From positions 1 through 54,224 of the forward strand of contig CALUZC010000019.1 in assembly GCA_944325215.1 (NCBI GenBank): a stretch of 54,224 nucleotides of DNA, given 5' to 3'. The notes beneath the pieces are model-generated. The model was not told the origin of the DNA and searched no databases. It saw nothing but the letters and a program-made list of their open reading frames with translations. Positions 4,202 to 32,660 of this stretch are shown here, one piece after another. This DNA comes from an uncultured Mucispirillum sp. Its GTDB lineage: Bacteria; Chrysiogenota; Deferribacteres; Deferribacterales; Mucispirillaceae. Positions within the stretch are counted from its first letter, which is position 1. Each line of letters opens with the position of its first letter. Made by a program: the position numbers and the translations under genes.

Positions 4202-6202
4202 ATGACAATTAAAAAGAAAATCTACTTGTCAGCAGGGGTTTTATCACTATTATTAATGTTGACAGCTATTTTCGCTTATGCTTCTGCATTTATTATTGGA
4301 AATGTATCTAATAATATCTTAAAAGCATACTCACCAGCACTTACTATCAACTCCCAAATAAGCACCCATTACTCTGATGGTCGTGCAGATGTGAGAACGG
4401 TTACACAAAAATATGATGAAGCATTATACAATGAAGCAAACCAGTCTATTGATGCTATGATTGTAGCTATTAATGACCTTGATAAACATTTAAAAACAGG
4501 TAAAAATGCATCTATTATGAATGTGATGCGTGAATATGTTGATAAAGCTTTAAGCTTATCTGCCAGATATAAACAATTATCTGATGATAGCATGAAAATG
4601 CGTAAATCTATTGAAGATTTAACAGCAAACTTTATGCAAAAAGCAAATGAAATGGAAAAAGCTTTAGGCGATGTTTACACAAACACTCTTAATGATATGA
4701 ATAGAGATTTAGGCGTTACTAATGATGATAATATTAGACGCAGAATAGGCAGGCTTGCTAAATTAAATGAAATTATGTATCATATTATTGATATGAAAGA
4801 TATTTTTACAAATATCTCAACAACTGGCGATGTTACTTTATTACAGGAATTTGATAAACACACAAAAGCAGTTCCTTCTCTCATTACTGAAATAAGAAAT
4901 AATATATCAGCCCCAGAAGACAGGAAGATTTTTGCAGTGGCAGAGGGTGCTTATAAAGAACTAAATAAAGCAATTACACAGCTTGAAAACCAGTATAATG
5001 AATTTAATAAACTTACAACTGAACGCCTGCAAGTTAATGATGAATTTACAGAAGTAGTTACATCAATGCTTGCAAGAAACGTTACTAACATTATGGACGG
5101 AGCAAACAATACAAATAAAGTTGTTCTTTCTACAAAGGCAATATCTGTTTTAACATTAATTATTGCTATCGTTTTAAATACACTAATTTTAATTGTATTC
5201 CAAAGATACGTTATTAAACCATTAGATGAACTTGTAAGCCACGTTGCTAATTTGACAGATGGAGACGGTAACCTTACAAAACGTATTAATGTGAATACAA
5301 AAGATGAACTCGGTGCTTTATCTAGTGGTATTAATAAATTCATAGAAAACATACAAGATATTATTATAAATGTAAAAGCCTCATCTGATGAAGTTGCAAG
5401 TGGTAATAACCAGCTGGCTTCTACTATGGAAGAATTAAATATTACATTTGCTACTCAAGCACAAGAAATCAGTAATATTGCTAATAATATGGACAGCGTT
5501 TCTCAGATTTCCAATAATGCAGTTCACTCACTAAATAACAGCCTAAACCTTTTAATAGGAACAAATAAACAGACTAAAGAAGGCATGGGGCTTTTAAACA
5601 CTGTTAAAAACAGTATTTTAAAAATCAATACTCAAACTGAAGTTCTTTCTGACACTATTAACAGACTTTCAGAAAACTCTAACCATATTGGTGAAATATT
5701 AACAGTTATTAATGATATTGCTAACCAAACAAACCTGCTTGCCTTAAATGCAGCTATTGAGGCAGCTCGTGCCGGAGAGGCAGGACGTGGGTTTGCAGTT
5801 GTTGCCGATGAGGTTAGAAAACTTGCTGAAAGAACTCAAAAATCAACAAGTGAAATTGAAGAAATCATTGTGACACTTCAAAATGAAACAGAAAGTGCAG
5901 CTCAGGAAATGGATACTGCAATGGTTGCCGTAAATGAAGGTGTTACAAGTGTTGAACAAACTATGAATGGCTTTAATATTATTGCAAGCAGTATATCAGA
6001 CACTAATAACGATATTAATAACGTTAGTGCTCAGATTTCTAACCAGTATAACAATATCCAAATGCTTGGTGATAATGTTCAAGTAGTAGCATCAGGGGTA
6101 GAAGAAAGTAACTCTGCCGTAAATGAAGTGGCATCTACTGTTACACATCTGCAGGAAAAAGCCGAAAAACTAAAAGCTCTAGTTAGCAGATTCCAAGTAT
6201 AA
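4202..6202 (+). CDS. Methyl-accepting chemotaxis protein
   Basis: Transmembrane chemoreceptor that controls CheA activity. The first transmembrane helix is at about 7-30. A long, mostly helical extracytoplasmic region (about 35-310) resembles a four-helix-bundle sensor. The second transmembrane helix is at about 313-337, then a HAMP linker ('[15 protein letters not shown]...' to about 392) and a cytoplasmic signalling domain. The highly conserved hairpin tip ([20 protein letters not shown], about residue 505-525) is intact, followed by [18 protein letters not shown]. There is no C-terminal CheR-tethering pentapeptide. An ATG at 4196 is also in frame, but GGAG at 4192-4195 overlaps it and spaces well for 4202. 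The ligand cannot be predicted. It implies a motile organism. Confidence 0.95.
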
Positions 6203-6230
6203 TTATTTGAATATAAAACAATATATAAAC

Positions 6231-6275
6231 AAAAAAGGCCAGCTCTAAAATATAACTTTAGGGCTGGCTGCTCTT
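6231..6275. terminator. Bidirectional terminator between convergent genes
   Basis: A 12-bp stem (6238-6249 with 6257-6268, two G-T pairs) is flanked by six A on the left and CTCTTTTTAT on the right, so it can end both the chemoreceptor (+) and the DMT-family gene (-). Confidence 0.8.
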
Positions 6276-6293
6276 TTTATAAAGAGTTGATAC

Positions 6294-6644
6294 TTATTTA
6301 AACATAAAATAAACAGCTCCTAAAAGACAAAGAGATGCCCATAAGAAATTCAAGTTTAAAGGTTTTCCCATATATAGTGTTACAAAAGGTATAAAAACAC
6401 CTAAAGCAATTACTTCCTGCATTATTTTTAACTGTGGCAAAGTAAAGACAGTATAACCAATTCTATTGGCAGGAACTTGTATCATATATTCAAAAAATGC
6501 TATCCCCCAGCTGGCAAGAGCTGCTCCAAACCATGGCAGCATAGATAAATTTTTTAAATGTGCATACCATGCAAAAGTCATAAAAACATTAGATAATATT
6601 AACATTAATACAGTAATAACTCCCGGATGAATCTGCAGATGCAT
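6294..6644 (-). CDS. DMT-family (DUF486) small membrane protein
   Basis: A 116-residue inner-membrane protein with four predicted transmembrane helices (about 8-27, 34-53, 75-90, 97-115). The C-terminal half, 'LKIMQEVIALGVFIPFVTLY' then 'MGKPLNLNFLWASLCLLGAV', matches my memory of the DUF486 family of the drug/metabolite-transporter clan. Length is normal. The substrate is unknown. It stands alone, convergent with the chemoreceptor. The family is common in core genomes and carries no clear pathway link. Confidence 0.85.
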   Translation of the reverse strand: MHLQIHPGVITVLMLILSNVFMTFAWYAHLKNLSMLPWFGAALASWGIAFFEYMIQVPANRIGYTVFTLPQLKIMQEVIALGVFIPFVTLYMGKPLNLNFLWASLCLLGAVYFMFK

Positions 6645-6877
6645 ATAAAATCTCCTATAAATAATATTTTTAGTATCCCTTTACTATATTTTCATGTTAT
6701 TTACTACCTAATATATAAACTGTCAAGAAAGATATTTTACGATACTACACTGTATAAAATAAAAAATATCACACATATATATTATAACAATATTATAAAA
6801 TTGTTTAAATTTTTTTCAATAAAATATCTAAAAAAAAGATACTATTAATCTTATTTTAATTTTATATATATATTTTC
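6645..6877. other. AT-rich intergenic region, no gene seen
   Basis: Extremely AT-rich spacer between divergent genes. Short open frames here have no family resemblance and no plausible ribosome binding site. The only structure I can support is the dcu promoter just to the right. Confidence 0.6.
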
Positions 6878-6906
6878 TTGAAAATACATGCTTTAATATC
6901 TATAAT
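6878..6906 (+). promoter_or_regulatory. Sigma-70-type promoter of the dicarboxylate antiporter gene
   Basis: TTGAAA (6878-6883), a 17-base spacer, then a perfect TATAAT (6901-6906). The expected start lies near 6913, giving a leader of about 100 bases before the gene at 7016. Confidence 0.75.
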
Positions 6907-7015
6907 AATATAATTATGTTATATTTTATTAAAAATTTTTATCTTTTTGTAAAACTTTTTATTGCATTTATTATTTTTTTGAATTAGTCTAAAAAAAACA
7001 GTAGAGGGTAAGTAT

Positions 7016-8344
7016 ATGATTATAATTCAATTATTAATTGTTTTGCTTGCATTATATGTAGGCTCTCGTTATGGTAGTATTGCCTTAGGTGTAATTTCTG
7101 GTATAGGTTTAGCAATTTTAGTATTTGCATTTGGTTTAAAACCTGGCACTCCACCAACTGATGTAATATATATTATTATTGCAGCAGTTACATGTGCTGG
7201 TGTCCTGCAAGCTTCAGGTGGTATGGATTTTATGATTCAAATAGCTGAAAAATTTTTAAGAGCACACCCAGAAAGAATTACTTTTTATGCACCACTTTGC
7301 ACATTCTTTTTAACAGTGCTTGTAGGAACAGGCCACGTTGTTTATACATTAATGCCTATTATTGCAGATATTTCATTAAAAAAAGGTATTAGACCAGAAA
7401 GACCTTGTGCTGTTTCCTCTATTGCATCTCAGGTTGGTATAACCTGCTCACCCATTGCTGCAGCTGTAGTTTCATTTGTTACTATTACCAATGAAAAAGT
7501 AGCTGGTGTAAACCTTCAAATACCACAAGTTTTAATGATAACTATTCCTGCATGTATATGTGGAATTATGATGGCGGCTTTATATTCTTCTAGAAGAGGG
7601 CTTGATTTAGATAAAGACCCAAAATACCAAGCAAGATTACAGGACCCAGAATTAAGAGAATACATGTTTGGCTCAACTGCTACAACATTAGATAAAAAAA
7701 TCCCTGCAACAGCAAAAGCATCTGTTTATTTATTTTTAGCAGCTTTAGCAGTGATTGTTACACTTGCAACATTTCCACAGCTTTTACCACATTATGATGG
7801 AAAACCGTTAAAAATGAATTTAGTTATCCAAATAGTAATGCTTACAGTGGCAGGGTTAATGGTATTAACTTGTAAAGCAGAACCAAAAAAAGTTGTAGCA
7901 GGCTCTGTATGGCAGGCAGGTATGGTGGCCGTTGTAGCAATTTATGGTATTGCATGGCTTTCAGATACTTACTTTATGGCATATAAAGAAGAAATGATGG
8001 CTGCAATGAAAGATATAGTAAATGCTTACCCTTGGGCTATTGCATTTGTTTTATTTGCAGTATCAGTTTTAATTAATACTCAAGGTGGTGTTGTGGTTGC
8101 AATTATGCCATTAGCATACAGTCTTGGAATACCTTGGTATGTGCTTTTAGGTGTTCTGCCATCTGTATATGCTTATTTCTTTATTCCAAACTATCCATCA
8201 GATATTGCAACGGTAAACTTTGACCGTTCAGGAACAACGGTAATAGGTAAATATCTTTTAAACCACTCATTTATGATACCGGGGCTTATATCTGTTATTG
8301 TATCTACTATCATAGGGTATTTGCTGGCAAATATTGTTTATTAA
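7016..8344 (+). CDS. dcuB: Anaerobic C4-dicarboxylate antiporter, DcuA/DcuB family
   Basis: Inner-membrane carrier that exchanges fumarate, malate or aspartate for succinate during anaerobic fumarate respiration. At 442 residues it has the usual length. Family blocks are clear: 'LQASGGMDFMIQIAEKFLR' (about 65-83), 'VGTGHVVYTLMPIIADIS' (about 104-121), 'GIRPERPCAVSSIASQVGI' (about 126-144), and the C-terminal 'FFIPNYPSDIATVNFDRSG'. About ten to twelve hydrophobic helices fill the chain. I favour DcuB over DcuA from the GTGHVVYT and RPERP surroundings, but the two are hard to tell apart by eye. The ATG follows GAGGG with good spacing. Single-gene transcript with its own promoter and terminator. 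Confidence 0.93.
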   Translation: MIIIQLLIVLLALYVGSRYGSIALGVISGIGLAILVFAFGLKPGTPPTDVIYIIIAAVTCAGVLQASGGMDFMIQIAEKFLRAHPERITFYAPLCTFFLTVLVGTGHVVYTLMPIIADISLKKGIRPERPCAVSSIASQVGITCSPIAAAVVSFVTITNEKVAGVNLQIPQVLMITIPACICGIMMAALYSSRRGLDLDKDPKYQARLQDPELREYMFGSTATTLDKKIPATAKASVYLFLAALAVIVTLATFPQLLPHYDGKPLKMNLVIQIVMLTVAGLMVLTCKAEPKKVVAGSVWQAGMVAVVAIYGIAWLSDTYFMAYKEEMMAAMKDIVNAYPWAIAFVLFAVSVLINTQGGVVVAIMPLAYSLGIPWYVLLGVLPSVYAYFFIPNYPSDIATVNFDRSGTTVIGKYLLNHSFMIPGLISVIVSTIIGYLLANIVY

Positions 8345-8738: not shown

Positions 8739-8761
8739 TTTACTTCTAATAAATATGTAAT

Positions 8762-8852
8762 GGAGAGATGGCCGAGTATGGTCGAAGGCGCTCGCCTGCT
8801 AAGCGAGTATACTGGGAAACCGGTATCGAGGGTTCGAATCCCTCTCTCTCCG
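8762..8852 (+). tRNA. tRNA-Ser (GCU)
   Basis: Ninety-one bases fold as a class II tRNA: acceptor stem GGAGAGA / TCTCTCC with discriminator G at 8852, anticodon arm CTCGC-CTGCTAA-GCGAG with anticodon GCT (reads AGC/AGU), a long variable arm (TACTGGGAAACCGGTA) and a T-arm GAGGGTTCGAATCCCTC. CCA is not encoded. The integrase gene begins its end about 375 bases further on, so this tRNA is the insertion site of the island, which leaves the tRNA intact. Confidence 0.97.
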
Positions 8853-8910
8853 TAAATACAAAAGGGCAGTTAAAAATACTGTCCTTTTTGTATTTACAGA
8901 GGGATTCGAA
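8833..8910. repeat. Inverted copy of the tRNA-Ser 3' end
   Basis: TTCGAATCCCTCT inside the tRNA (8833-8845) recurs as its exact reverse complement at 8898-8910, outside the terminator stem. Read from the right, the second arm is tRNA 3' sequence followed by the same terminator sequence, lacking seven bases of the acceptor end. This is what a decayed, inverted att site would look like. Confidence 0.6.
8853..8896 (+). terminator. tRNA-Ser terminator inside a larger inverted repeat
   Basis: TAAATACAAAAGGGCAG pairs with CTGTCCTTTTTGTATTTA around a 9-base loop (about 16 pairs, one bulge). The stem continues on both sides into the T-arm sequence of the tRNA and an inverted copy of it (see the repeat entry), so the hairpin may have arisen by inverted duplication of the tRNA end. 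Confidence 0.7.
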
Positions 8911-9226: not shown

Positions 9227-10525
9227 TCACTCATCTTTTTGATTAGTCAAAAAATCCATATTAGATAAATCCTCCTGATAATTTCCATACCTGTTTATCA
9301 CCATGGCAGAAGATGTATGACCAAGCATACGGGCAGTCTGGTTATATGTTGCACCTGCCTTTAAAAAATTTATTGCAAAATTATGCCTGTTTTTATAAAG
9401 CTGCCTGTGCTCTATATTACATGCTTCTAAAATTTTATTCCACTTCCTGGCAGCTGAAGGGTATCTTTTATAATACTCTCCACTTTTATTATAAAAAAGA
9501 TAATCTATTTTATTATTATAAAATTTATCTAAATGCTCCATGATGTATGGCTTTAATACTGATTGAATAGGAAGTATTCTTGTTCTATCTGTTTTTGTGT
9601 TATTTTTTAACTCTCCTGATGTGATAGTTTTAGATATTTCAATACATAATTTACCTCCTGCCTCATCACTTAAAGCTCTTTCAAGAGCTTTTTTGGATTT
9701 TAATAGAATCAGATTATTATGCTCATCAAGCAGTTTAAAATCATTCCATGTAAGAGCAAATATTTCGCCAGTTCGTAAACCTTCAAACAGTCCAAAAGCA
9801 AAAAACAGAGTCCAGCCTGGATAATATTCTTTTGAATATTCTAATATTTTATCAATATCCTCACTGCTGTATGGCATTACTGTAACTAATTTTACTTTCT
9901 GCTTTTTGATTTGCGAACAAGGGTTTTTATCAATTATATCATTTTGCACAGCATAAGTCATAATAGATGACAAACAGCCAATAATATTATTAATATACTT
10001 ATTACTGCATTTATCAACAAGTTTATTCTGAAAACTTTGTATGTGGGAAAGCTTAATATCTTTTAATGACATACTTCCAAATGCTGGTATAAGATAATTT
10101 GTAATAATATTCTTATAGCCATGTTTAGTGCCTTTACTAAGGCTGGCATTTTGAAGCCAATTATTTGTAAACTTAGTAAAGTCGCTGTCATTAAAGTAAG
10201 TTACATTATTTACAGTAACATTATCAGCTTTAAAACCATATACAGTTTCACTTTTACTTGATGATTTTAAACCAGATGAATATTTTTTGCGTGCCCGCAA
10301 AGAATGTGGAAAAAACTTTTCAAAAACAAAAGTATTTCCATCAATTACTGTTGAAACGGCATTAGCTAATTTAATAGCACTTTTATGCCCTTCACAACGA
10401 CATGTGCTGATGCCCTTGCCGCTGCATTTAAAATTTGAAGACACTTCTACATTGTTAGCAAAACCATTCTCATAGTAGCTAAACCTAAGAAATATAGTAG
10501 AATTTTTGACACGTGTAGTGACCAT
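9227..10525 (-). CDS. int: Tyrosine recombinase, island integrase
   Basis: Site-specific recombinase of about 432 residues that would insert and excise the island at the adjacent tRNA-Ser. The N-terminal ~85 residues look like an arm-type DNA-binding domain with a short CRCEGH insert. The SAM-like core-binding domain spans about 120-215 ('FTKFTNNWLQNASLSKGTKH...'). The catalytic domain has Arg in GLRTGEIFALTW (about 251), the Y-K-N-R-H version of the HxxR box in LYKNRHNFA, LGHTSSAMVINRYGNY with the second His and the nucleophilic Tyr. All key residues are present, so it should be active. The start is the ATG at 10525, four to five bases after GGAGG. A GTG at 10528 overlaps the Shine-Dalgarno. 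Its 3' end faces the tRNA. Confidence 0.95.
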   Translation of the reverse strand: MVTTRVKNSTIFLRFSYYENGFANNVEVSSNFKCSGKGISTCRCEGHKSAIKLANAVSTVIDGNTFVFEKFFPHSLRARKKYSSGLKSSSKSETVYGFKADNVTVNNVTYFNDSDFTKFTNNWLQNASLSKGTKHGYKNIITNYLIPAFGSMSLKDIKLSHIQSFQNKLVDKCSNKYINNIIGCLSSIMTYAVQNDIIDKNPCSQIKKQKVKLVTVMPYSSEDIDKILEYSKEYYPGWTLFFAFGLFEGLRTGEIFALTWNDFKLLDEHNNLILLKSKKALERALSDEAGGKLCIEISKTITSGELKNNTKTDRTRILPIQSVLKPYIMEHLDKFYNNKIDYLFYNKSGEYYKRYPSAARKWNKILEACNIEHRQLYKNRHNFAINFLKAGATYNQTARMLGHTSSAMVINRYGNYQEDLSNMDFLTNQKDE

Positions 10526-10738
10526 CACTCCTCCATAAATATATTAGGTCACCGTCCGTTTATGGAGTTTACTTATAAATTATATAAGCAGTCATCTAAA
10601 AATTAAGTATTGCAGTTTTTGTTCCTTCCTTAAAATTTTAAAATATTATGTCCTGCAATACATAATATGATATACAATACATTAAGTTACTTTTCAAGTG
10701 TTTTTATGAATATATTTTAATCATATATATTATATCAG

Positions 10739-10993
10739 TTATTCTTCAATTAATTCATGCTCTCTGCCTTTACCTTGATTAATTGCAGAAATACCTCTTT
10801 TCAAATGCTCAATATTCGATTTTGAATAGAAAGGGTCATTAGATATTTCAAATGGAATACGATTTTCTCGCAATACTGCTTTTATAAACAATGATATTGC
10901 AGTAGAAGTGTTCATTCCTACATCATCACAAAATTTATCAAAAGCCAGCTTATTTTCTTTATCAATTCTAACACTAATAGTTGAATATTCCAT
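10739..10993 (-). CDS. Orphan RelB/DinJ-family antitoxin
   Basis: An 84-residue protein with the RelB/DinJ pattern: N-terminal ribbon-helix-helix ('STISVRIDKENKLAFDKFCD', 'GMNTSTAISLFIKAVLRENR') followed by IPFEI and a flexible acidic tail that would wrap a toxin. These proteins repress their own promoter and neutralise a RelE/YafQ-like mRNase. No toxin gene is found on either side: 10529-10738 downstream and 10994-11131 upstream show no RelE-like reading frame. So it is an orphan, perhaps a remnant or an anti-addiction module. AGGTG precedes the ATG. Confidence 0.85.
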   Translation of the reverse strand: MEYSTISVRIDKENKLAFDKFCDDVGMNTSTAISLFIKAVLRENRIPFEISNDPFYSKSNIEHLKRGISAINQGKGREHELIEE

Positions 10994-11858: not shown

Positions 11859-12437
11859 TTATATAGTATTAAATAATCTATCTCCAGTATCTGGTCCTTT
11901 TTCACCAATTTGACACAATATTTTTTCACCTTTAAAACTATTGAATGAACTTCTAACTGCATATAATTTATAATCATTAAATAAATTTATTGCATCATTT
12001 TGTATAACATTTGTTGCTATAATGATTTGCTTTGCATACGGCATAATCTCTTTCGCTACTGCACAAAGCGTTTTACCTGTATGGATTACAGCATCTACTA
12101 TAATAATATTCCGATTATCAATTATAGACAGATTTTTTTTAATAAATTCATTATAACGTTCTAATTTTTTTGCCCATAACTTAGAATCCTTTTCATCCAA
12201 GATTAGAAATGATGAATCAAGTACATCGGCAATGCCAAAAGAAAAAGGTAAGCCAGCTCTAGCTAAAGAAATTATTGTTGAATTTTCTTTATAATCTAAA
12301 ATAGTGCTATTTAGTGCTAAATATTGCCCTAATTCATAATGACTTTGTCGTAATTTTGCACCAGTATAGCCAGAATTACTTTTACATATGTTTATTAAAG
12401 AATTAAGATATTCATTATTCTGCAAAATTTCTATCAT
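11859..12437 (-). CDS. UPRT-like phosphoribosyltransferase
   Basis: A 192-residue type I phosphoribosyltransferase. The PRPP loop is IIIVDAVIHTGKT (111-123). SLARAGLPF (57-65) resembles the 'LRAGL' block of uracil phosphoribosyltransferase, and GPDTGDRLFNT (181-191) resembles the C-terminal uracil-binding GxGDAGDRxFGT of UPRT. It should therefore join PRPP to a pyrimidine-like base, or run the reverse reaction. Divergence from housekeeping Upp suggests another substrate. Last gene of a four-gene operon: its ATG overlaps the stop of the kinase-HAD gene (ATGA). I infer that it makes or releases a nucleotide-like compound with its neighbours. It could also be a plain salvage enzyme, which the coupling makes less likely. 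Confidence 0.8.
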   Translation of the reverse strand: MIEILQNNEYLNSLINICKSNSGYTGAKLRQSHYELGQYLALNSTILDYKENSTIISLARAGLPFSFGIADVLDSSFLILDEKDSKLWAKKLERYNEFIKKNLSIIDNRNIIIVDAVIHTGKTLCAVAKEIMPYAKQIIIATNVIQNDAINLFNDYKLYAVRSSFNSFKGEKILCQIGEKGPDTGDRLFNTI

Positions 12438-13648
12438 ATTATATCTCCAATTTTCTCTATTATTTTAATATGGTTATAATGAGGTAAATTATATTGTAGC
12501 TGAAATAATCTATTTGTATATTGAATATTATTGATTTTATTACGAATTTTATCTGGTGCATATATAATACCTGTATCGGCTTCTAATAACATAAGAATAT
12601 CAACCATACTATCTCCTATCGCAATAACTTTTTTACCATATTTTTTCAATTGCTTAGCTATATATCCTTTAACAAAATCACTTATAAGTACTGTAGAGTC
12701 TTTAGTAAAATTACCTCCATAAATTTCATCACATATATTATATTTATTATTTATATATGCCCACACTTCATAAACACCTGATGTTAACCCTGCAACAAAA
12801 ATATTACTATTATCTTTTTTAGATAATTTAATATCATCAACTAATTCTTTATTAAGGTTAATATTTGAAATAATGCTATCCATATCTAGTAACTTAGAAT
12901 CTATTGAGAAATATTTATTTGCTTTCCAAAACTGATATAATGAATATGCATCATCTGTAAAAATATTGTTTAAATCATTCATATGTTTATCTGTATAATC
13001 AAAACATTTTACAGTCATATCTTCCTTTGCAAGTGTTTTATCACAATCAGTAAGTATTATTACATCTTTATTACCACACTGTAAAAGTATATTATTACAT
13101 ATAGTTCTAGCTATATCATACGATTTCACAAAATTATTGTTTTTAATTAATGTAAAAAAATCTACTAAATCATTTTCATTATTATCTAATATAATAAATT
13201 CTTTATCTGCCATAAATAGATATTTTTTTAAATTTTCAATTTCTAAATTACGCCACCAATTTATATCTTCATATGATAAGTTTGAAAATTTTCTATTTTT
13301 TTCAGAATGCTGTATTCTTTCTATAACAACATTAACCGCTGTATCTAAATAACATATAATATCATAAAATTTTTCATCTTCTTGAATATAAACAACATTA
13401 TCCATAAATGAATAATGTCCATCAACAATGATATTTGTATAGTTAAGCTGTCTGGCATATTTTATAAATTCTTTTCTTAAGAAAATCTTTTCAGACTCAA
13501 CAGTTTTGTCAAATTCTTTAAACAATAAAGATTTTGATAACTTTTTTAATGTTCCAGAACCAGGTAAATGAAACAACTTATTATCTATAATTTTTTCAAT
13601 TAATGTATTTTTACCGCTGGTAGGTAATCCATATAATCCTATATTCAT
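12434..13648 (-). CDS. P-loop kinase-HAD phosphatase fusion
   Basis: A 404-residue two-domain cytosolic enzyme. Residues 1-170 form a P-loop nucleoside/nucleotide-kinase-like domain: Walker A GLPTSGKN (7-14), a Walker-B-like IIVDGHYSF (73-81), and an Arg/His-rich lid near 111-121. Residues about 195-400 form a HAD phosphatase of the SerB-like type: motif I DCDKTL (201-206, both Asp present), motif II around GLTSG (287-291), Lys 327, and motif IV GDSMVDI (345-351), with a cap between I and II. Kinase-then-HAD is also the order in T4 polynucleotide kinase-phosphatase, so nucleic-acid end repair is an alternative to small-molecule work. It is tightly packed: two bases after the radical SAM gene, four-base overlap with the phosphoribosyltransferase gene. 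Confidence 0.8.
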   Translation of the reverse strand: MNIGLYGLPTSGKNTLIEKIIDNKLFHLPGSGTLKKLSKSLLFKEFDKTVESEKIFLRKEFIKYARQLNYTNIIVDGHYSFMDNVVYIQEDEKFYDIICYLDTAVNVVIERIQHSEKNRKFSNLSYEDINWWRNLEIENLKKYLFMADKEFIILDNNENDLVDFFTLIKNNNFVKSYDIARTICNNILLQCGNKDVIILTDCDKTLAKEDMTVKCFDYTDKHMNDLNNIFTDDAYSLYQFWKANKYFSIDSKLLDMDSIISNINLNKELVDDIKLSKKDNSNIFVAGLTSGVYEVWAYINNKYNICDEIYGGNFTKDSTVLISDFVKGYIAKQLKKYGKKVIAIGDSMVDILMLLEADTGIIYAPDKIRNKINNIQYTNRLFQLQYNLPHYNHIKIIEKIGDII

Positions 13649-13650
13649 AT

Positions 13651-14568
13651 TTAATCACCTAATACATATTTATCATAAAAGCATTCTTTTCTATTAAAAG
13701 GCTTAATTACTTTTGAGAGATTTTCTTCTATCTCATTTAATTTATGATAATATTTACCAATTATATACTCTTTTCTATCAATGAAACGACCACAATGATA
13801 TATATCATCTTCACTGTAATAGATATTTGTTTGACCCACGCCGCAATTATGACCATATAAGGTGCAGTCAACTTTATTAGAATTATTATTCTGTCGAACA
13901 TTAAGTTTATAATTTTTTACATAATTTAAAAAATCAACATATTCTTTATGTGTAATTGTAAAATTAATATCATTAAAATCCACCATACGAGAAAAAGTCA
14001 CTTTATCAAAATTTGTTTCTAAAAATTTTAGTAGTATATCTCTTTGTAAGATTGACTTTTTATGTATCGTAACATTAACTTTTGGAGCATATCCATATAA
14101 AGACTGATAAAGTTTGACAGCATTCATTACTAAATTAAAAGAACCTTGATTATCCTTTTTTATACGAGCAAAATCGTGTAATTCTTGATGACCATCTATA
14201 GAAAAATTAATTTTCAATCTATGTTTATATTTATATAAATACATAGCTTTTTCTTCATTATAAAGCAACCCGTTAGATACTATATATAATTTAATTAAGT
14301 TTTTTTTATCATTTTGTTCTATATATTCTAATAAAGATTGTATAAGATTAAATTTTATTAATGGTTCACCAGATCCAACAATACCTATTGTAAACAATGG
14401 CAGTTTGTTGTTATAAGCATATTCAAGTATATTATTAACTATTACATACAATTTCTCTTGTGTTAAATCTTTATATTTATGTTTTTTTTCCATATTAACA
14501 TCAAAATGACAATATTTACATTTCAGCTGACATTTTCTAGTTAAAGATATACATGCTTTATCTATCAT
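13651..14568 (-). CDS. Radical SAM enzyme with SPASM/Twitch-like C-terminus
   Basis: A 305-residue radical S-adenosylmethionine enzyme. The cluster-binding CxxxCxxC is at Cys13, Cys17 and Cys20, SGEP (66-69) is the SAM-binding GGEP equivalent, and SIDG (123-126) is the usual strand-5 motif. The C-terminal part has further cysteines at 235, 242, 259 and 296 in a SPASM/Twitch-like pattern ('CTLYGHNC', 'YHCGRF', 'ECFYD'), which points to an auxiliary Fe-S cluster. Such proteins (anSME, peptide maturases) usually modify proteins or peptides, some small molecules. No precursor peptide is obvious nearby. Its ATG overlaps the stop of the PIN-ankyrin gene and the kinase-HAD gene follows after two bases, so the four products surely work together. 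It requires anaerobic conditions, which suits the genome. Confidence 0.85.
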   Translation of the reverse strand: MIDKACISLTRKCQLKCKYCHFDVNMEKKHKYKDLTQEKLYVIVNNILEYAYNNKLPLFTIGIVGSGEPLIKFNLIQSLLEYIEQNDKKNLIKLYIVSNGLLYNEEKAMYLYKYKHRLKINFSIDGHQELHDFARIKKDNQGSFNLVMNAVKLYQSLYGYAPKVNVTIHKKSILQRDILLKFLETNFDKVTFSRMVDFNDINFTITHKEYVDFLNYVKNYKLNVRQNNNSNKVDCTLYGHNCGVGQTNIYYSEDDIYHCGRFIDRKEYIIGKYYHKLNEIEENLSKVIKPFNRKECFYDKYVLGD

Positions 14569-15572
14569 ATTACACCTTGATTTTTAAATTTTTTATACAA
14601 GTCATTGTGTTCTTTACTCAAATAATCAAGTGCCGTATACTGTTCTTTAGATTTAATATTTATATCTGTTTTATTTATTAATTTTTTTATTATTTTTTCG
14701 TGTCCTTTTATACAAGCTTTTATTAATGCAGTAAATCCATTTGAATCTTGTTGATTACAGCATACTGAATTCCTTAGTAATATATCAACAATATCATCAA
14801 AACCATGCCAAGATGCTATCATAAGAGCAGTATTATTATAATTTCTTCCTTCAGAACCTCTATTAACATCTGCACCAGCATTAATAAGCATTTCTATAAT
14901 TTTTATTTCATGTTGCTGCACTGCATATGACAATGGAGGTATACTATGTTTATCACATACTTGGTTAATATCTAAGTATGGATTACTCAATATATATTTT
15001 ATAATATCAAGTTTTCTTTTTTTCACAGCCAAATAAAATGGGCTGTAATCAGTAAGAGGATATATATAATTAATATCCTTAGAATGACCTATTTGTGTTA
15101 AAGAATTTAAATCAGAATTTTCTACTGCTTTATAATATTGTTGACCGATATTTGAATATTCATTATTCTGATGTTGCTTTAATAACTGTAAAAACTCAAC
15201 TTCATCAATAATTTTCATTTTTTTAGATTTAAAAGTTTTATATATCTTATCTGAAGAATACAGATATACTCCTTGCTTATATGCAGCAAAATCTTCTGCA
15301 TAAAGATATATTTTTTCATCATTTGAGTTAGTTACTTGATTGATATTTATTTTATGTATGACTAACTTATACTCTGCAATATGATTAATAATATAACCAG
15401 CATCTTTTTGTATATTAACTGCATACTGTTGCTGCTTATTATCTTTTATATTGTCTAATTCATATAAAACTGGTTCAAGTATTACAATATTAAATATCTT
15501 ATTAAACTTTTTAATAAAATTTTTATTATGTAATAATACATTTGTATCTGGAAGCAAAAAGAATTTTTTCAT
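14565..15572 (-). CDS. PIN-domain nuclease fused to ankyrin repeats
   Basis: A 335-residue protein. Residues 1-135 are a PIN-type RNase domain: DTN (9-11), the conserved ILEPVLYELD with acidic residues at 33 and 38-40, then Asp94 and SSDK with Asp108, so the acidic metal site looks complete. Residues about 140-330 contain about five ankyrin repeats ('TPLxxAxxxxxxxiVxxLL' pattern; for example 'NNTALMIASWHGFDDIVDIL' and 'GFTALIKACIKGHEKIIKKL'). I chose the ATG at 15572 because AGGAGG lies eight bases before it; an in-frame extension upstream has no such signal. First gene of the radical SAM/kinase-HAD/PRTase operon. It may be the toxic effector, with ankyrins binding a trigger or partner. No separate antitoxin gene is visible. 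Confidence 0.8.
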   Translation of the reverse strand: MKKFFLLPDTNVLLHNKNFIKKFNKIFNIVILEPVLYELDNIKDNKQQQYAVNIQKDAGYIINHIAEYKLVIHKININQVTNSNDEKIYLYAEDFAAYKQGVYLYSSDKIYKTFKSKKMKIIDEVEFLQLLKQHQNNEYSNIGQQYYKAVENSDLNSLTQIGHSKDINYIYPLTDYSPFYLAVKKRKLDIIKYILSNPYLDINQVCDKHSIPPLSYAVQQHEIKIIEMLINAGADVNRGSEGRNYNNTALMIASWHGFDDIVDILLRNSVCCNQQDSNGFTALIKACIKGHEKIIKKLINKTDINIKSKEQYTALDYLSKEHNDLYKKFKNQGVI

Positions 15573-15737
15573 AGTACATTCCTCCTTAATAATTTTATTC
15601 AGCATATTAGCAGCAAAAGATATTCAAAAGTAAATCCGGCACTGTAAAAAATTTATTTAAATTTCCATAAAACACATCATCACTATACTGTATACATAAT
15701 TTTCTAATATGATATATTTGTATTTTTCAGTTTCTTA

Positions 15738-23463: not shown

Positions 23464-24072
23464 TTATATATTTTTTAACAGCTCCAGTTCTTTTTTTAAT
23501 CTATTATATTCTTCAAATAATTCCCGCTTTTTTAAAGGCTGTTTTTCTTTACGCATTTTATTATTAAGCCTTTCCACCTTTAAAGCTAGGGCATCATAAG
23601 CACTGTTTTTCTGCACCTGCTCTTTTAATGTTTTGCCCTGCTCCACACTGATATTAAAAATATCTATTATCAGGTTATCCCATACTTTTGATAAATCAAG
23701 CCCTTTTAATTCTAATATTATGTCATTACTTAATTTATCAGTAGTTAAAACCTTTTCTTTATATACTGATACTTGAAAATATGCACCATAATCTAATAGA
23801 AATATGATATTCTGGTTTGTATTTTTTGAAAAATATTCTATTAATTTATTTGTAAAACTTTCACTTTTTAGTAAAAACTGCATTACATATATGTTTTTTA
23901 CTTCTTTTCCTGCTGAAATATGGGTGGTATTTTCTGATATTTCATGAATTAAATAGCATTTTGATACTTCATTATCAAAACTTCTAAAGCTGTCCTTTTG
24001 GGTTAGCATCTTTTTTATTTTCTGCTTTGAAACCATTACTTTTATTTCAGTAGATTTTGGAAGTATCAGCAT
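23464..24072 (-). CDS. DUF4391-like protein
   Basis: A 202-residue protein that I assign to DUF4391 from its overall layout: beta-rich N-terminal half beginning 'LILPKSTEIKVMVSKQKIKK', a middle block about a hydrophobic LLDYGAYFQVSVYKEKVL, and a charged coiled-coil tail (about 160-200, 'VERLNNKMRKEKQPLKKREL'). Function is unknown. From memory, such proteins recur beside a PLD-SNF2 helicase and a type III-like Mod/Res pair, exactly the neighbourhood here. It lies 11 bases after the helicase and 65 bases before the yefM repeat region, so it was probably cotranscribed with mod before the toxin-antitoxin insertion. A role as adaptor between helicase and methyltransferase is possible but unproven. 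Confidence 0.7.
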   Translation of the reverse strand: MLILPKSTEIKVMVSKQKIKKMLTQKDSFRSFDNEVSKCYLIHEISENTTHISAGKEVKNIYVMQFLLKSESFTNKLIEYFSKNTNQNIIFLLDYGAYFQVSVYKEKVLTTDKLSNDIILELKGLDLSKVWDNLIIDIFNISVEQGKTLKEQVQKNSAYDALALKVERLNNKMRKEKQPLKKRELFEEYNRLKKELELLKNI

Positions 24073-24083
24073 AATATTTCAAC

Positions 24084-27000
24084 CTATACCACTGCTATAA
24101 AGCAGATTAATTCAAAATCATCAATACCAGTAATATTTTCTTTTATAAAACTTACAGGCCTGCCCTTTAAAAAACTTTCCACATTGCTTTCTTCCTGCAC
24201 CGTTACCATGCTTTCTATACTGCCTGTTAAAAGAGATGAATATTTTGCCATATTTTTGCCGTCTTGCGTATCTGTATTAAATATATGGCATGCCCGCCTG
24301 TCTATATCTTTACCTTTGCACATATAACGGACCACATCTAAAAGCTCTTTTGGCTGCAAATGGTTATATAAAAGCGAGCCGTCCTCTAATATATATACCA
24401 TATAAAATGGGTGCAGCCTGTTTCTGCCCTGTATATTTATATCGTTTACCCTGTTTTTTAAGATATATATTGCTCCCCTTTTAAATTCTTCGCCTGCCTG
24501 CACCACTGCATGCATACCATAAGGAGCATGCTCTATATCGTTATGGGTTTTCATGTAATCTAATAAATCAAGACGAAATTCATTTAAGCCTAAATCCATA
24601 ATAGATACACCGCCTGTCATATCCTCTATATCTACTATCTCATTTTTTAGCCGTTCCAGCTGTAAACGCCTGTATTCTAAATCACCTTTTTCATTTTCAT
24701 TTATTAAATCATCATCACCTGTGGCAGTCATAACAGATATTCGCATACGGGTTTCTACCGTTGCTTTTAAATTAATATATTCATCTAAATTAATATCAGG
24801 CCAGAAATTAACCAGCTGAATACACTCATTTTTTGAGCCTATCCTGTCTATCCTGCCAAAACGCTGGATAATGCGGACAGGGTTCCAGTGGATATCATAA
24901 TTTATTAAATAATCACAGTCTTGCAGGTTCTGACCTTCTGATATACAGTCCGTTGCAATAAGTATATCTATATCTTCCTTTGAATTTGGTGAGATAATAT
25001 CACGCTCTTTTGAAAGGGGAGAAAAATTCATTAATATACTGCTGAAATCTGATTTTATACCTTTGGCAGTTGATGTGCACTGGTTTGAACCTGAAACTAT
25101 ACCTGTATTTAAGCCGTATTTTGCTTTCACTTCTTTACTGATATTATTATATAAATATTCCGCTGTATCTGCAAAAGCTGTAAAGATTAATATTTTCTTA
25201 TTGCCAGCATTTATTGGGTGATTTATTTTATCATCTATCATGCTTTTAAGCATACTTAACTTGCTGTCATGCTCTGGGGTAATGCTTGATAATTTACTAT
25301 ATAGATTTTCTAAAAATACTTTATCTGATAGTAAATCCTGACGCCATGTAATATAATCCATATCACTTAATTTAATATTAAATGATTTCTCAGATATTAA
25401 AAAATCAGTATTTTTATCATCTTCATCTAAATCGTTATTTACTATTTCCACCACATCTATATTATCTAAGGCAGAATTAGTTTCATAATTATTAATATGA
25501 CGAACAGCCTCATCTATTAAATCCATTATCCGCTTTAACGTAAGCCTGAAAGAATAAACTGAACTTTCTAAACGCTTTAAAAGGTTTATTGCCATTAACT
25601 TTTGGACACCCTTCTCTCTGCCCCGCATGGTCAGGTTTACACCCTTTGTGTTTGCAAGCTCCTCATAATAATCTATTTTAGATGGATGTATAAAAAATGA
25701 CGGCGTATAGATACTTAAATTTAACCTGCTTAAAGTATCATATATTTCACTGTAATTTATAATATTCTTTAAATCAGTCAGCTTAGGCATTAAAGCCTTA
25801 GGTTTAAGCCTTTTTGGAAACTTTCCAATATCTGCCATATTATATCTGTTTGCTATATGCTTTCTTGAACGGGCTATTGTAACACTGTCTAATAACTCAA
25901 AAAAATCATTATCAAGCATATCTAATAAATTAGCAGTAGTCCTTTCCTCAGGCGGATTTTTACTCCATTTATTAAAAGCAGCCTGTGCAGAACGGAAAAT
26001 ATCATCAATATTTCTTTCCGTCTTTAACCTGCTGTTTATAAAGGCAGTATCTCCCTCATAAGCTAAGGCAAGCTGGTTCTTTAAATCTATAAACCTGTTG
26101 TTTACTGGCGTTGCTGATAACATCAATACTTTTGTTTTAACACCAGCTTTTATGATTTTCCTCATTAAAGTAGTATATCGATTCTGCCTTTCATCATCTA
26201 CCAGGTTGCCACCATTCCTAAAATTATGGCTCTCATCTATTACTACTAAATCATAATTACCCCAGTTTACACGGCTTAAATCTAACCCGTTAGACATACC
26301 ACCATTGCGAGATAAATCTGTATGGCATAATACATCATACCTAAGCCTGTCTTCTGCTACTGGATTATTTATATAGTTTGCCCTGTATGTAAGCCAGTTT
26401 TCTGAAAGTTTTTTAAGGCATAATACTAATACATTTTTACCACGGTTTTCATAGTATTTAATAACAGCCAAAGCCGTAAATGTTTTACCAAGACCTACGC
26501 TGTCTGCCAAAATGCAGCCGTTATATTTTTCAATCTTGTTATATATCTCCGTAAAGGCTTCCTTTTGAAAATCAAAAAGCTTATTCCATATTTTACTGTC
26601 TTTAAATCCTGTTGCCTCATTTGGAAGATTATCTTCTGATATGTCCTCTAAAAACTCATGGAAAATATTATAAAGCATAACAAAATATATAAAATCTGGT
26701 GAGTTCTCCTTATATACATTTGCAATGCTGTCTATTACTGATTCTGTAACGTCCTGCAATATATCCTTATCCTGCCACACCTGCTGAAAGTGAGAAAGGT
26801 AAGTATTTGCATTTTCATGCTCCACTTTACTAATAATTGTAAGTAAATTGTTGCCCTTTTCAAGCCCTAAAGAAACAGTGGAAAATTCATCAATAGGTGC
26901 ATAGGCTTTATTTATACCATCATGGGAAATAACCATAAAATTTGTGATTTGCTTATTAGATATATTTGACTTAAACTTAACCTTACTTTTTACCCACTCT

Positions 27001-27314
27001 GCACATTCTTTTGCTACAACCTTTTGAGTAAGACCATTTCTAAGGCGAAGTTCAAAAGGTGTGCCATAAAGATTACGCTCTCGCTCCAGCTTTGGTATGT
27101 AAAACTCTCGCTTTTCCTTTTGTATGCTGTCTTTAACAAATACAGGAGATGTAAAAATAAACCGCAGCTCATCAATACTTTCAAGCTGCTTTTTAAGCTC
27201 ATGATATGAATAAATTGAAAAACTTGCACTGGCAATAGACAATACACTTCCCTTCTTTATCTCAACAACTAAATCATCAAATAACCTGTTTACATTGTTA
27301 TCAAATATGTTCAT
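24084..27314 (-). CDS. SNF2-type helicase with N-terminal PLD-like domain
   Basis: A 1076-residue protein. Residues 1-170 resemble a phospholipase D-like domain as found on many defence helicases ('SVLSIASASFSIYSYHEL', later AYAPIDEFSTVSLGL). The SNF2/SF2 core has ADSVGLGKTFTALAVI (Walker A, about 272), VVIDESHNFRNGG (motif II, about 360), MLSATPVNNR (motif III) and NPVRIIQRFGRIDRIGS (motif VI, about 820). A C-terminal ~200-residue extension follows. It presumably translocates on double-stranded DNA and may cut or remodel it in concert with the type III enzymes. First gene of the locus on the minus strand. The composition is less AT-rich than the next module upstream. Confidence 0.88.
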   Translation of the reverse strand: MNIFDNNVNRLFDDLVVEIKKGSVLSIASASFSIYSYHELKKQLESIDELRFIFTSPVFVKDSIQKEKREFYIPKLERERNLYGTPFELRLRNGLTQKVVAKECAEWVKSKVKFKSNISNKQITNFMVISHDGINKAYAPIDEFSTVSLGLEKGNNLLTIISKVEHENANTYLSHFQQVWQDKDILQDVTESVIDSIANVYKENSPDFIYFVMLYNIFHEFLEDISEDNLPNEATGFKDSKIWNKLFDFQKEAFTEIYNKIEKYNGCILADSVGLGKTFTALAVIKYYENRGKNVLVLCLKKLSENWLTYRANYINNPVAEDRLRYDVLCHTDLSRNGGMSNGLDLSRVNWGNYDLVVIDESHNFRNGGNLVDDERQNRYTTLMRKIIKAGVKTKVLMLSATPVNNRFIDLKNQLALAYEGDTAFINSRLKTERNIDDIFRSAQAAFNKWSKNPPEERTTANLLDMLDNDFFELLDSVTIARSRKHIANRYNMADIGKFPKRLKPKALMPKLTDLKNIINYSEIYDTLSRLNLSIYTPSFFIHPSKIDYYEELANTKGVNLTMRGREKGVQKLMAINLLKRLESSVYSFRLTLKRIMDLIDEAVRHINNYETNSALDNIDVVEIVNNDLDEDDKNTDFLISEKSFNIKLSDMDYITWRQDLLSDKVFLENLYSKLSSITPEHDSKLSMLKSMIDDKINHPINAGNKKILIFTAFADTAEYLYNNISKEVKAKYGLNTGIVSGSNQCTSTAKGIKSDFSSILMNFSPLSKERDIISPNSKEDIDILIATDCISEGQNLQDCDYLINYDIHWNPVRIIQRFGRIDRIGSKNECIQLVNFWPDINLDEYINLKATVETRMRISVMTATGDDDLINENEKGDLEYRRLQLERLKNEIVDIEDMTGGVSIMDLGLNEFRLDLLDYMKTHNDIEHAPYGMHAVVQAGEEFKRGAIYILKNRVNDINIQGRNRLHPFYMVYILEDGSLLYNHLQPKELLDVVRYMCKGKDIDRRACHIFNTDTQDGKNMAKYSSLLTGSIESMVTVQEESNVESFLKGRPVSFIKENITGIDDFELICFIAVV

Positions 27315-27423
27315 CTATCACCAATACCATAGTATAACGACATTCACTGTCGCTTTTCCTTTACTGACAAGGTATTATAACAGTTTTTATAAGATTTTTC
27401 AAGGGCGGAAAAAAGGGAAAGAC

Positions 27424-30400
27424 TTAAATGCTTTTATAGCTATTTTTATCTAAATGAAGTAATAATGATAAATACACAAACTCATTAAAAATATTATACA
27501 GTTTATCCCATTTTACATTAACATCTATAATATTTAAAAACTCTAATATATTGCTCAGCAGTCCAAACCATAAACCATTAATATCAATATATTCTGTTTT
27601 TGAATATAAGCTACGATGAAGGATATGCATATATTCATCATTCCAGTTAATATCTTTAAAATATCCAAAAATTTCAGGATATGGCAGGCAGCACAAATTT
27701 CCATCAACCATATCTGCAACCTGCTCCGCCAAATAACCATTATCAATATAATATTTTAGATTAGACTCTTTAAGATATTTATATGTCTGATTATCTTCAT
27801 CTATATAATTTTTATTATCTTCGTGCAGTGTGTATAAAATATTATGTTTATCTAGTTCTTTTATAAATTCTTTATCGCTTTTATCAACTTCTATTACTTC
27901 GAACTTATGTATGGTCAACAAGATTATTAAACTTTCTTTATGAATAGAATACATGATATTAACAATATCATCATACCGAATAGCACTACCTACACTTCTT
28001 CTTACTTGATGAAGAACTTCATCAACATTAAAATATTTTAACTGCTCAGGTTTTAATTCATCTATTCTAATGTAATCCATATATTTCCGTATTTGATTAA
28101 TATTATCTTCCCAAAATTTTGTATCTTTATTAATTAAATATGATGTAAAAATATGACGAATTCCTTTTTCTGACCGTTCCATAAAAGATTTTAATATTTC
28201 AAATGATGCATGACAATGTACTTGTTTTTTCTGTTCAAATAAATCTAATGCTCGATATATATTTATTACCGTATAATCTTTCCTAAAAAAATACATTATC
28301 CATGCATAATTTAATGCATAAATATCTATATCTTTATTTAAAAGATATGCGAGTCTAATTAGGTTATTTGCTAAATGTAATACTTTATATGACCGTAAAT
28401 GCGACCATGCTTGTAACTTATGAAGAAATGGTTCATTCCAATCAATAATATGATTTGGTGCTATCATATCAATATCATTTTTTATAATACGTAATTTACC
28501 ACTAAAGAGTTTATCTATTTTATTTTTATCAATCAAGGCATGGAAATATGTATTATCATTATCAATATATTTCTGAAATTCTCTATAATATATATTATTT
28601 GATTTATGTAAAAAATTTAAAGAAATAAGATAATTATCCAAAATATCATATGAATATATATTATTATACATCAAACGAGATAAAATATCTTCTATTTTCT
28701 CTTGATGAGTTTCAATATCTATTAAAAGAGATTCTATATAAATATTATAATTTGTTTCTTGCATAAGTATGATATTTGATTTTATTTCATATAATATGTT
28801 CCACATAACTCCTTGACTATATACAGTGTCTTCAAGATTATTCTCCTTAGATAGACTCTTTTGCTGGTATAATAGTAAATTATACACTAAATTTTCATAT
28901 CCTTCCAAATCAACTCTATCTAATGTATTATAAATCAATACAAAAGTATAAGATTCATATATATCTAATACTTTTTCCGTATATTCTAACTGAATACGTA
29001 AATAATTATAAAATTCTTTAATAGATTCAATATCTAATGTATTATTTAATAAATCTTTTAATGCAGTAAAAGAGGAATATTTTTTTATAAGTTCTTTTAT
29101 AAATTCAGTTCCTAATTTAAAATGATTTAATCTTGATATAAAATTGATGTTTCCTTGTAAAACACTGCCCTTCACATAAGTAGATACCTTATTCTGCATA
29201 TTAATTAATTCTGTCTTATCATTACAACGTTCTCTAAGATAAGTATTAAAACTATCATGAAATAAAGATACTCTATTTAATAAGTATGTAAAAAAATATG
29301 GATATTTATCAATAAATTCTTTTATATATTTATATTCATTTTGTAATATATTTGAAAGTTCTTCATAAGTATAGAATGAGTTATTACAAAGAAAAACATT
29401 TAATGATATTGAAAGCTTGGAATCAACAACACTGCTATAATATTCATCTAAACTATTTAATTTATCAATATCTGATACTTTATTATTTTTTTTATAATCC
29501 TCAGCAATATATTTTGTAATAAGTGGATAACCTTGTGATATTTCATATATTTGGTAGCATATACTCCAGTCTGTAATATTATATATTTCATTTAAAAATT
29601 TATAAACATCATCTATTAGCCAGTTTTGCATTTGGTATTGTTTATATTTAATTTTCAAAGCAAGTGGGCGTGAAAATATTATAGCTTGAATATGATGCTG
29701 CTCTAATTTTTCTATTAATTTCATAAAGCTCTTAAAATCTTCAGATTTACCGTAACGCTCTAAATGATCTAAACCATCAATAAGTAAAACACATTGCTTT
29801 TTAGCTAATAAATCTATTATCTCTTCTTCAGAGCATATTTGATAAGTATGTGTTAGCTGCCTGCCTATATCTTCTAAAAAATTTTCATAGTGAAGTCTAG
29901 CATCATAGTCAGGATCAGTACTATTTATCCAAAACCTATATAATACAGATTCCCTATTCTTCTCTTTTAGTGTTTTTTCAATCATACTACATACGTGACT
30001 TTTTCCTTTACCTGGTTCACCAACAACAAAATTGATATATGCATTAAATTCATTTAGATAAGATTTATCAAAATATATTGTTTTATCTAATAAGTCAGTT
30101 GAGAATAATTGTATTGGAGGTAAATCTTTTAATTCAATTTTTAGGTTACGTTTATGAATTTGTTTATCATAAAATCTAGTTATTTCTAGTATACGCTCAT
30201 CTGGGTATTTAAGATTATCAAGTATAGTTACTATTTTTGTATCATCAATTGGAATAATAATAACATTTCCCTGTTTTATAGCAGGTAAACCATAAAAATT
30301 ATAATTACTTTCAATAACTTCACTAGAATGATAAATGACAACCATTTTTTCATTTTCAAGCAACTGAATACATTTATCTAAAATTTTGATAGTATTGTTA

Positions 30401-31617: not shown

Positions 31618-31651
31618 ATTTTATCCTCATTACTAATAACTCTTTAATTAA

Positions 31652-32614: not shown

Positions 32615-32660
32615 AATTATACCTTATCCACATTATAATGACTAAACATAATAATTTTAA

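Follow-up and report, generated by a model that had tools for sequence, protein, structure and literature searches.

A mobile four-gene operon that combines a PIN-ankyrin nuclease with three enzymes, and its possible role in anti-phage signalling

Introduction

The OAS-RNase L system couples one or more nucleotide-making enzymes to an RNase that senses the nucleotide through its ankyrin repeats (PMC5927464, PMC7922175). The operon described here likewise pairs nucleotide-type enzymes with an ankyrin RNase, for which we infer that a ligand is read. It has, however, a PIN_4 domain and not the catalytic domain of RNase L, and it codes for a phosphoribosyltransferase (PRTase) resembling uracil phosphoribosyltransferase (UPRT), a kinase-HAD protein and a radical SAM enzyme, without an oligoadenylate synthetase. 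Its ankyrin stretch matches RNase L as one among many ankyrin proteins, which is a generic match.

CBASS and related cyclic-nucleotide systems may work alike, a mobile operon encoding both enzymes and an effector gated by a ligand, but none of the four operon proteins has a CD-NTase match. Elsewhere in the island around the operon there is a distinct CBASS-like locus (31652-32614 with 30811-31617). Prokaryotic viperins (pVip/SAND) resemble the operon in having a radical SAM enzyme in a defence context (1.1e-12 to the pVip profile) and in a nucleotide-analogue theme. Against the viperin family NF038283, however, the enzyme scores 50.6 bits (cutoff 180), and its four extra cluster cysteines set it apart. 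VapBC and other PIN toxin-antitoxin systems also have a PIN RNase with intact acidic residues in an autoregulated operon. Here, in contrast, no small protein antitoxin adjoins, the downstream genes in complete loci code for the three attached enzymes, and the DNA-binding domain sits on the nuclease itself. The Ter-linked module that Anantharaman reportedly described in 2012 contains PRTase and HAD enzymes, as does this operon, with a nucleoside-like product predicted. None of the four proteins, however, matches a Ter family in Pfam. The initial annotation knew of no described system with this gene set, and we agree: there is no PADLOC or NCBIfam model for it, nor did we find a paper on it in the literature searched.

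Results

The window is the whole stretch of DNA that was analyzed (54,224 nucleotides, from an uncultured Mucispirillum sp.). Four genes are encoded on its minus strand at 11859-15572. PIN-Ank (14565-15572, 335 aa from the second ATG) has a PIN_4 nuclease domain followed by ankyrin repeats. It is followed by rSAM (13651-14568, 305 aa), a twitch-like radical SAM enzyme. KH (12434-13648) consists of an adenylate-kinase-like P-loop kinase (residues 1-172) and a phosphoserine-phosphatase-like HAD domain (193-404). PR (11859-12437, 192 aa) is a UPRT-fold phosphoribosyltransferase with a PRPP loop and the C-terminal motif GPDTGDRLF. The junctions are -4, +2 and -4 bp, just as the initial annotation had described them (4-base overlaps or 2-base gaps). 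The Shine-Dalgarno sequence that it placed at the front is also present (AAGGAGG with an 8-nt spacer, 15573-15587, minus strand). The longest open reading frame of PIN-Ank extends to 15605, but the second ATG, 8 nt past AAGGAGG, is the most likely start codon. A consensus promoter scan did not yield more sites than shuffled sequence, no terminator was found, and an RNA family search near the operon returned a tRNA alone.

The catalytic motifs of all four genes are intact in the window copy, as had been claimed. PIN-Ank (Pfam: PIN_4, 2.4e-11; ankyrins, 2e-28) has the nuclease residues D20, E49, D96 and D119 in the numbering of the long reading frame, where D20 is Asp9 when counted from the second ATG. 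The acidic residues are kept in 29 of 30 PIN sequences, the exception being a duplicated PIN. The homologues have a conserved loop (NQQDxNG) in the ankyrin region. Ankyrin repeats usually bind proteins.

For KH, Pfam reports AAA_17 (4e-8) and a weak HAD match; the kinase (GK12-13) and HAD (D201/D203) motifs are intact. In the predicted structure, the kinase domain is best matched by archaeal adenylate kinases (Z 19.5) and the HAD domain by phosphoserine phosphatases (Z 16.4). PR matches UPRTase in Pfam (1.2e-9), and its predicted model (pLDDT 88) superposes on 1xtt with Z 19.3 (rmsd 2.7, 169 aligned), as compared to a Z of about 13 for other PRTase folds. PR has an intact PRPP loop (DAVxxTG; DAV[IV]xTGK in homologues). 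Despite the predicted UPRT fold, it stays far below the cutoff of the Upp model TIGR01091 (23.4 bits against 208), and its PRPP loop has D-A/S-V-I where Upp has D-P-M-L. The predicted structures support the view that one arm of the system performs nucleotide-type enzymology. In one genome (L075), KH and PR are a single fused gene; as encoded there, they are able to form one polypeptide.

The description of rSAM as a SPASM radical SAM protein holds only for the radical SAM core (Pfam Radical_SAM, 5e-12; CxxxCxxC with C13/C17/C20; GxGE with E68), which it shares with SPASM maturases. C13, C17 and C20 are invariant in all 28 copies. A classical SPASM domain has seven cysteines and two auxiliary clusters. 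Since rSAM has only four further invariant cysteines (C235/C242/C259/C296), and no Pfam SPASM match was found up to E 0.1, we consider it twitch-like. The nearest profiles and structures are the peptide maturases PapB and CteB and the protein-modifying anSME, and the profiles of PapB, HxsB and CcpM outscore the viperin family. There is no room for a precursor-peptide gene at the operon junctions (-38 to +19 bp), except for a three-gene insert in one locus (L024).

Most PIN-Ank homologues have an N-terminal HTH, which the window copy lacks. A candidate operator, TGT(A/C)A-N7-T(T/G)ACA with at most one mismatch, precedes the PIN-Ank gene in 15 loci, often as two tandem copies 19-20 bp apart. It is missing from all three loci without the HTH. 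Because the window is one of these three, neither element was visible to the initial annotation. As judged from the homologues, the nuclease of most copies carries a DNA-binding HTH and has a conserved tandem operator upstream of its gene. One phage locus (L125) has two PIN-Ank genes: in the HTH-bearing one, the catalytic site is dead, with D20 changed to H and D96 to K, while the HTH-less one is intact.

The same four genes occur in the same order in 28 further loci (29 with the window), mostly with -4 bp junctions. They are from Spirochaetota, Bacteroidota, Fibrobacterota, Pseudomonadota, Desulfobacterota (on a cut contig), Bacillota and Thermoplasmatota; five viral contigs also carry the block. 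This recurrence makes the gene order of the window far from a chance arrangement. It also answers whether the genes stay together in unrelated genomes, and rules out scattered single genes, apart from three solo KH-like genes in archaea, which adjoin transporter-like genes. All 17 loci that were found via the PR motif and had sufficient room contain all four genes. The motif-search alignments, which include artificially varied rows, served as guides only, and matches were verified by tblastn using the real sequence. Pairwise gene distance matrices covary (r 0.86-0.92), with the highest value for KH-PR (0.92) and 0.90 for PIN-rSAM. Within the clades tested, rSAM was confined to genomes that have the operon; among Vibrionaceae and Methanomassiliicoccales-type archaea, the rSAM-family matches coincide exactly with the KH-operon genomes, and weaker matches (1e-22 to 1e-28) are to longer radical SAM proteins. 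Catalytic residues are invariant across the copies, except for one duplicated PIN. Sequence comparison shows that the four genes are inherited together as one unit and that all four catalytic sites are strongly constrained.

Occurrence is sporadic, with at most about 2% of the sampled genomes per bacterial clade. No relatives were found in the phylum of the window itself (1/51). Tblastn with single proteins gave nothing for KH and PR against plasmids and for KH against phages; rSAM found only generic maturases on plasmids (up to 31% identity). A blastn search against E. coli, which is a weak test, gave no match. Several host genomes are MAGs, so that misbinning is possible. Some loci deviate from the common pattern. 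The L075 genome has no rSAM gene; the enzyme may be dispensable, or this copy may be decaying. In a Vibrio (L019), KH has internal stops, which may be a draft-assembly error, while PIN-Ank retains all four catalytic residues. In L024, an isochorismatase-like hydrolase, a transporter-like membrane protein and an APRT-like PRTase are inserted into the operon. In addition, a kinase-vWA-PP2C triad, which we take to resemble TerY-P, is directly upstream of the operon in L007.

The operon of the window lies in a defence island, as noted initially, together with genes for a type III RM system, NERD-UvrD, HKD-Snf2, a CD-NTase with a 4TM effector, and PDC-S01. A tRNA-Ser and a tyrosine integrase precede the island, and no repeat of the tRNA-Ser end was found within the window. 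One phage copy (L003) is located between portal and terminase, and four divergent phage copies (L123-L125, L127) adjoin endolysin and/or integrase. An archaeal copy is beside DUF1156/DUF499 antiphage genes. Judging from these neighbours, copies ride on phages and islands, and phage carriage supports a phage-related role. The expected association of homologues with other defence genes did not stand out: PADLOC matches near homologues (47 families, 143 proteins) were not clearly more frequent than in control stretches of those genomes (34 families, 138 proteins).

Discussion

We tentatively favour a mobile, autoregulated four-gene system of signalling and effector functions, probably anti-phage, in which three enzymes set the level of a nucleotide-like effector that gates an ankyrin RNase. 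PR would join a uracil-like base to PRPP, and the opposed kinase and phosphatase domains of KH would set the phosphorylation level of the resulting nucleotide. rSAM may modify the base or the nucleotide. The ankyrins of PIN-Ank would read the product and thus control the RNase, and through the HTH the product may also control transcription of the operon. Upon infection, a disturbance would release the RNase, and growth would stop. We slightly prefer that the ligand activates the nuclease on infection rather than restraining it, because the Vibrio copy keeps an intact PIN-Ank with a broken KH. Counting against this reading are the genome without rSAM, the action of the closest rSAM relatives on peptides, the usual binding of proteins by ankyrin repeats, the possible misbinning of several hosts, the possible assembly error in the KH gene of L019, and the lack of a clear PADLOC enrichment.

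The most probable alternative, though we consider it unlikely, is an accessory pathway outside immunity. The enzymes would produce a modified nucleobase or nucleotide (a cofactor or an antibiotic-like compound) or would salvage it, with HTH-PIN-Ank as ligand-responsive repressor and mRNA-cleaving regulator. The enzyme types, the well-conserved operator, the three genes inserted in L024, the transporter-like neighbours of the archaeal solo KH genes and the unremarkable PADLOC counts all fit. Such a pathway agrees less well with the sporadic occurrence, the phage-borne copies at lysis/integrase and portal/terminase positions, and the strict conservation of the nuclease site.

Slightly less probable is an addiction-like arrangement in which a nucleotide produced continuously by the enzymes acts as antitoxin and keeps PIN-Ank inactive, until infection or operon loss depletes it and sets the toxin free. 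PIN domains are well known as toxins, autorepression via the HTH resembles toxin-antitoxin operons, and the genes for the enzymes always accompany the nuclease gene and are translated after it. Under a strict antitoxin role, however, the L019 state (intact PIN residues with stops in KH) and the absence of rSAM from the L075 genome would both be harmful, and a small antitoxin gene of the VapB type is absent.

It is improbable that rSAM modifies PIN-Ank or another protein, similar to CteB or anSME, with KH and PR adding or removing phosphate or ribosyl groups. This would agree with the relatives of rSAM, the conserved NQQDxNG loop and the PIN-rSAM correlation, but the junctions are too short for a precursor peptide, the folds of PR and the kinase are those of nucleobase PRTases and nucleotide kinases, and L075 does without rSAM. 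Finally, an RNA-repair cassette, in which KH heals RNA ends (PNKP-like) after PIN cleavage, would account for a kinase and a HAD domain in one chain beside an RNase, but we rejected it as very improbable because the two domains of KH are closest in fold to adenylate kinase and phosphoserine phosphatase, KH has no PNK3P match in Pfam, the operon lacks an RNA ligase, and PR and rSAM would be left unexplained.

Conclusions

It is tempting to extend the favoured signalling system to a prokaryotic analogue of RNase L, an immune signalling class common to bacteria, archaea and temperate phages, in which an ankyrin-PIN protein, at once RNase effector, sensor and transcriptional autoregulator, would read a modified nucleotide made from a base by the UPRT-like PRTase, rSAM and the kinase/phosphatase. 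We regard this extension as possible but doubtful. A strictly conserved four-gene unit that occurs in at least seven phyla, in two domains of life and in phages is a system whose function is still to be found. A new nucleotide-type metabolite is to be expected from it, as is one protein uniting nuclease, sensor and repressor. With the operator, the fusion of KH and PR, the split PIN paralogues and the invariance of the active sites at hand, these hypotheses can be tested directly.

Operon Organization and Genomic Island

The operon consists of four minus-strand ORFs, encoding a PIN nuclease with ankyrin repeats (PIN-Ank, 14565-15572; Pfam PIN_4 plus ankyrins), a radical SAM protein (13651-14568; Pfam Radical_SAM), an adenylate-kinase-like P-loop kinase fused to a HAD domain (KH, 12434-13648; Pfam AAA_17, HAD weakly) and a UPRT-fold PRTase (PR, 11859-12437; Pfam UPRTase). 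An ORF check agrees with the positions in the initial annotation, and its tight spacing (4-base overlaps or a 2-base gap) is reproduced by junctions of -4, +2 and -4 bp. The longest PIN-Ank ORF reaches 15605. Because AAGGAGG sits 8 nt ahead of the second ATG, translation likely starts at 15572. The G+C content is 23.9% for the operon versus 32.4% for the DNA ahead of tRNA-Ser.

The island starts at tRNA-Ser (8761-8853). A tyrosine integrase gene (9227-10528) lies between this tRNA and the operon, which therefore sits in an integrated island. No second copy of the tRNA-Ser end was found inside the window. The setting is indeed a defence island, with NERD-UvrD, type III RM, HKD-Snf2, a CD-NTase with a 4TM effector, PDC-S27 and PDC-S01 present. 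A CBASS-like locus (30811-33845) comprises the CD-NTase, the 4TM effector and an adjoining RmrA/CapP-CapH-like protein. The region 23464-30648 codes for the HKD-Snf2 helicase (C3a139) and a DUF4391 protein, followed by a NACHT/AAA-like protein of 1074 aa for which PADLOC has no match. A RelB-type antitoxin gene (10739-10993) has no obvious toxin partner adjoining, and the AT-rich stretch of ca. 850 bp between it and the operon contains no clear gene.

Conservation as One Unit

Direct homology searches with the window proteins returned no close match. A motif-steered scan led to a viral contig (L003) that carries the four genes in identical order, with 31-40% identity. The PR motif GPDTGDR[LIM][FY], common to the window and this contig, was the query for a wider scan of 84,980 species genomes, which yielded 21 confirmed loci. 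As named in the genome records, many of which are MAGs, the hosts are Treponema, other spirochaetes, Prevotellaceae, Fibrobacter, clostridia, Vibrio, Enterovibrio, Neptuniibacter, Lonepinella, Mailhella and, among archaea, methanogenic Thermoplasmatota. The four genes and their order are kept in all 17 loci with enough sequence; the other four are truncated by contig ends. Whole-genome profile searches added complete copies from Vibrionaceae (L076-L078), Clostridia (L091, L092) and an archaeon (L096), and a last viral scan added L123, L124, L125 and L127. Mostly single, scattered homologues had been named as the outcome that speaks against a four-gene unit; what was found are 29 complete loci including the window, one of which (L019) has internal stops in KH. 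Pairwise protein distances of the four genes correlate at 0.86-0.92 (Mantel p <=0.001), with KH-PR highest.

Occurrence across the sampled clades is sporadic. Matches were found in 5/294, 6/297, 3/391 and 1/344 genomes of four bacterial groups and in 7/147 of the archaeal order (three being solo KH-like genes), these samples being draws rather than a census, with mechanical ORF calling. Within the genomes drawn from Vibrionaceae and the archaeal order, true members of the radical SAM family are confined to KH-operon genomes, and the weaker matches are longer radical SAM proteins. The solo archaeal genes (L093:8488-9720, L094:7665-8729, L095:7248-8462) have damaged kinase motifs in two of three cases, and transporter-like genes adjoin two of the three. 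One exceptional locus (L075) has KH and PR fused into one 532-aa protein and a frameshifted PIN-Ank; no radical SAM gene was found in that genome.

Predicted Enzymes

The PR model has a UPRT fold (pLDDT 88; Z ~19 to UPRTs versus 13 to the next PRTases). Its C-terminal base-binding loop, GPDTGDRLF, is a version of the UPRT loop GLGDAGDRLF, and fold and loop together suggest a uracil-like base. The PRPP loop differs, with DA/S where UPRT has DP. In the KH model (pLDDT 89.6), the kinase domain finds its nearest folds among archaeal adenylate kinases (OdinAK, the structure of which was solved with several nucleotides, at Z 19.5), and the HAD domain is phosphoserine-phosphatase-like (Z 16.4). We predict that KH is a level setter, with opposed kinase and phosphatase-type activities on a single chain. 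The Walker lysine, the DGH motif and the HAD residues are kept in every operon copy covering the region in question; in L022, the chosen start removes the P-loop.

The radical SAM protein has three cysteines, a glutamate and four extra cysteines conserved in 28/28 sequences. It had been assigned to the SPASM type. The radical SAM cysteines are intact, but the protein is twitch-like because it has just one set of four extra cysteines.

Regulation of PIN-Ank

The PIN D/E/D/D site is complete in 29 of 30 sequences. An HTH_3 domain opens most PIN-Ank proteins (Pfam for L003, alignment for the others). A putative operator, TGTAA-N7-TTACA or a TGTCA variant, lies upstream of the gene, often in two copies 19-20 bp apart. 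Allowing one mismatch at most, it is present inside 250 bp of the gene in 15 loci, two of them archaeal and one from a phage; among the 15 are five nearly identical Vibrionaceae copies that should be weighed as about one. Mononucleotide shuffles give ~0.03 per locus. The operator is absent upstream in the three loci without HTH (window, L007, L010). A divergent phage/clostridial subfamily has the HTH and lacks the TGTAA-N7-TTACA site. Repeated words upstream of PIN-Ank, GTTGC in L123 and L124 and ATGTGCA in L127, may be operators of their own. Phage L125 codes for two PIN-Ank proteins (5480-7983). One has the HTH, but its PIN site is dead (D20 to H, D96 to K); the other lacks the HTH, and its site is intact. 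We read this pair as a natural separation of regulator from nuclease.

Phage Link

The L003 operon sits between portal and terminase genes, on the opposite strand. Endolysin/amidase and serine integrase genes flank the operon in L123 and L125, and serine integrase genes adjoin L124 and L127. An archaeal copy (L014) adjoins DUF1156 and DUF499 antiphage-type genes, and L016 is near a PLD/SNF2 helicase of antiphage type. In L007 (348-8292), a protein kinase-vWA-PP2C triad is directly upstream and an NYN plus OST-HTH/LOTUS protein directly downstream. The expectation that homologues lie near other defence genes was not clearly borne out: at a threshold of 1e-15, PADLOC matched 47 families among 143 neighbour proteins and 34 among 138 controls, which the same genomes supplied, and this is no clear enrichment. 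Therefore, the phage link rests on carriage, not on neighbourhood statistics, and carriage on phages supports it.

Function

The initial annotation knew of no described system with this set. Combined terms for the four genes, searched outside subscription literature and preprints, retrieved no paper, related searches brought up no mention of the set, and PADLOC and NCBIfam gave the window proteins generic or sub-threshold matches only. The set is not mentioned in the passages retrieved from two comparative-genomics papers (PMC10853773, PMC7159879). Further PIN and HAD systems are validated in DefensePredictor (PMC13092281), whose retrieved passages do not describe this set. Membership tests place the operon outside viperins, CBASS and VapBC.

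In L024 (4004-6297), three genes are inserted between PIN-Ank and radical SAM. Their products resemble an isochorismatase, a transporter (as a membrane protein) and an APRT-type PRTase, an indication of small-molecule chemistry. Nevertheless, for an operon that phages carry, a role in an accessory metabolic pathway under an unusual regulator is somewhat unlikely. A metabolite antitoxin is unlikely; in the Vibrio mimicus copy (L019:9998-11247), PIN-Ank is intact beside the interrupted KH. Protein modification is improbable. CteB and anSME, the nearest relatives of the radical SAM protein, speak for it, but no operon junction examined has room for a precursor peptide.

Our tentative preference, held at somewhat short of even confidence, is for a phage-responsive system. 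PR, KH and the radical SAM protein would produce and tune a nucleotide-like effector, this effector would control the ankyrin-gated RNase, and the HTH of PIN-Ank would autoregulate the operon. The logic would resemble that of OAS-RNase L, a family to which the operon does not belong.
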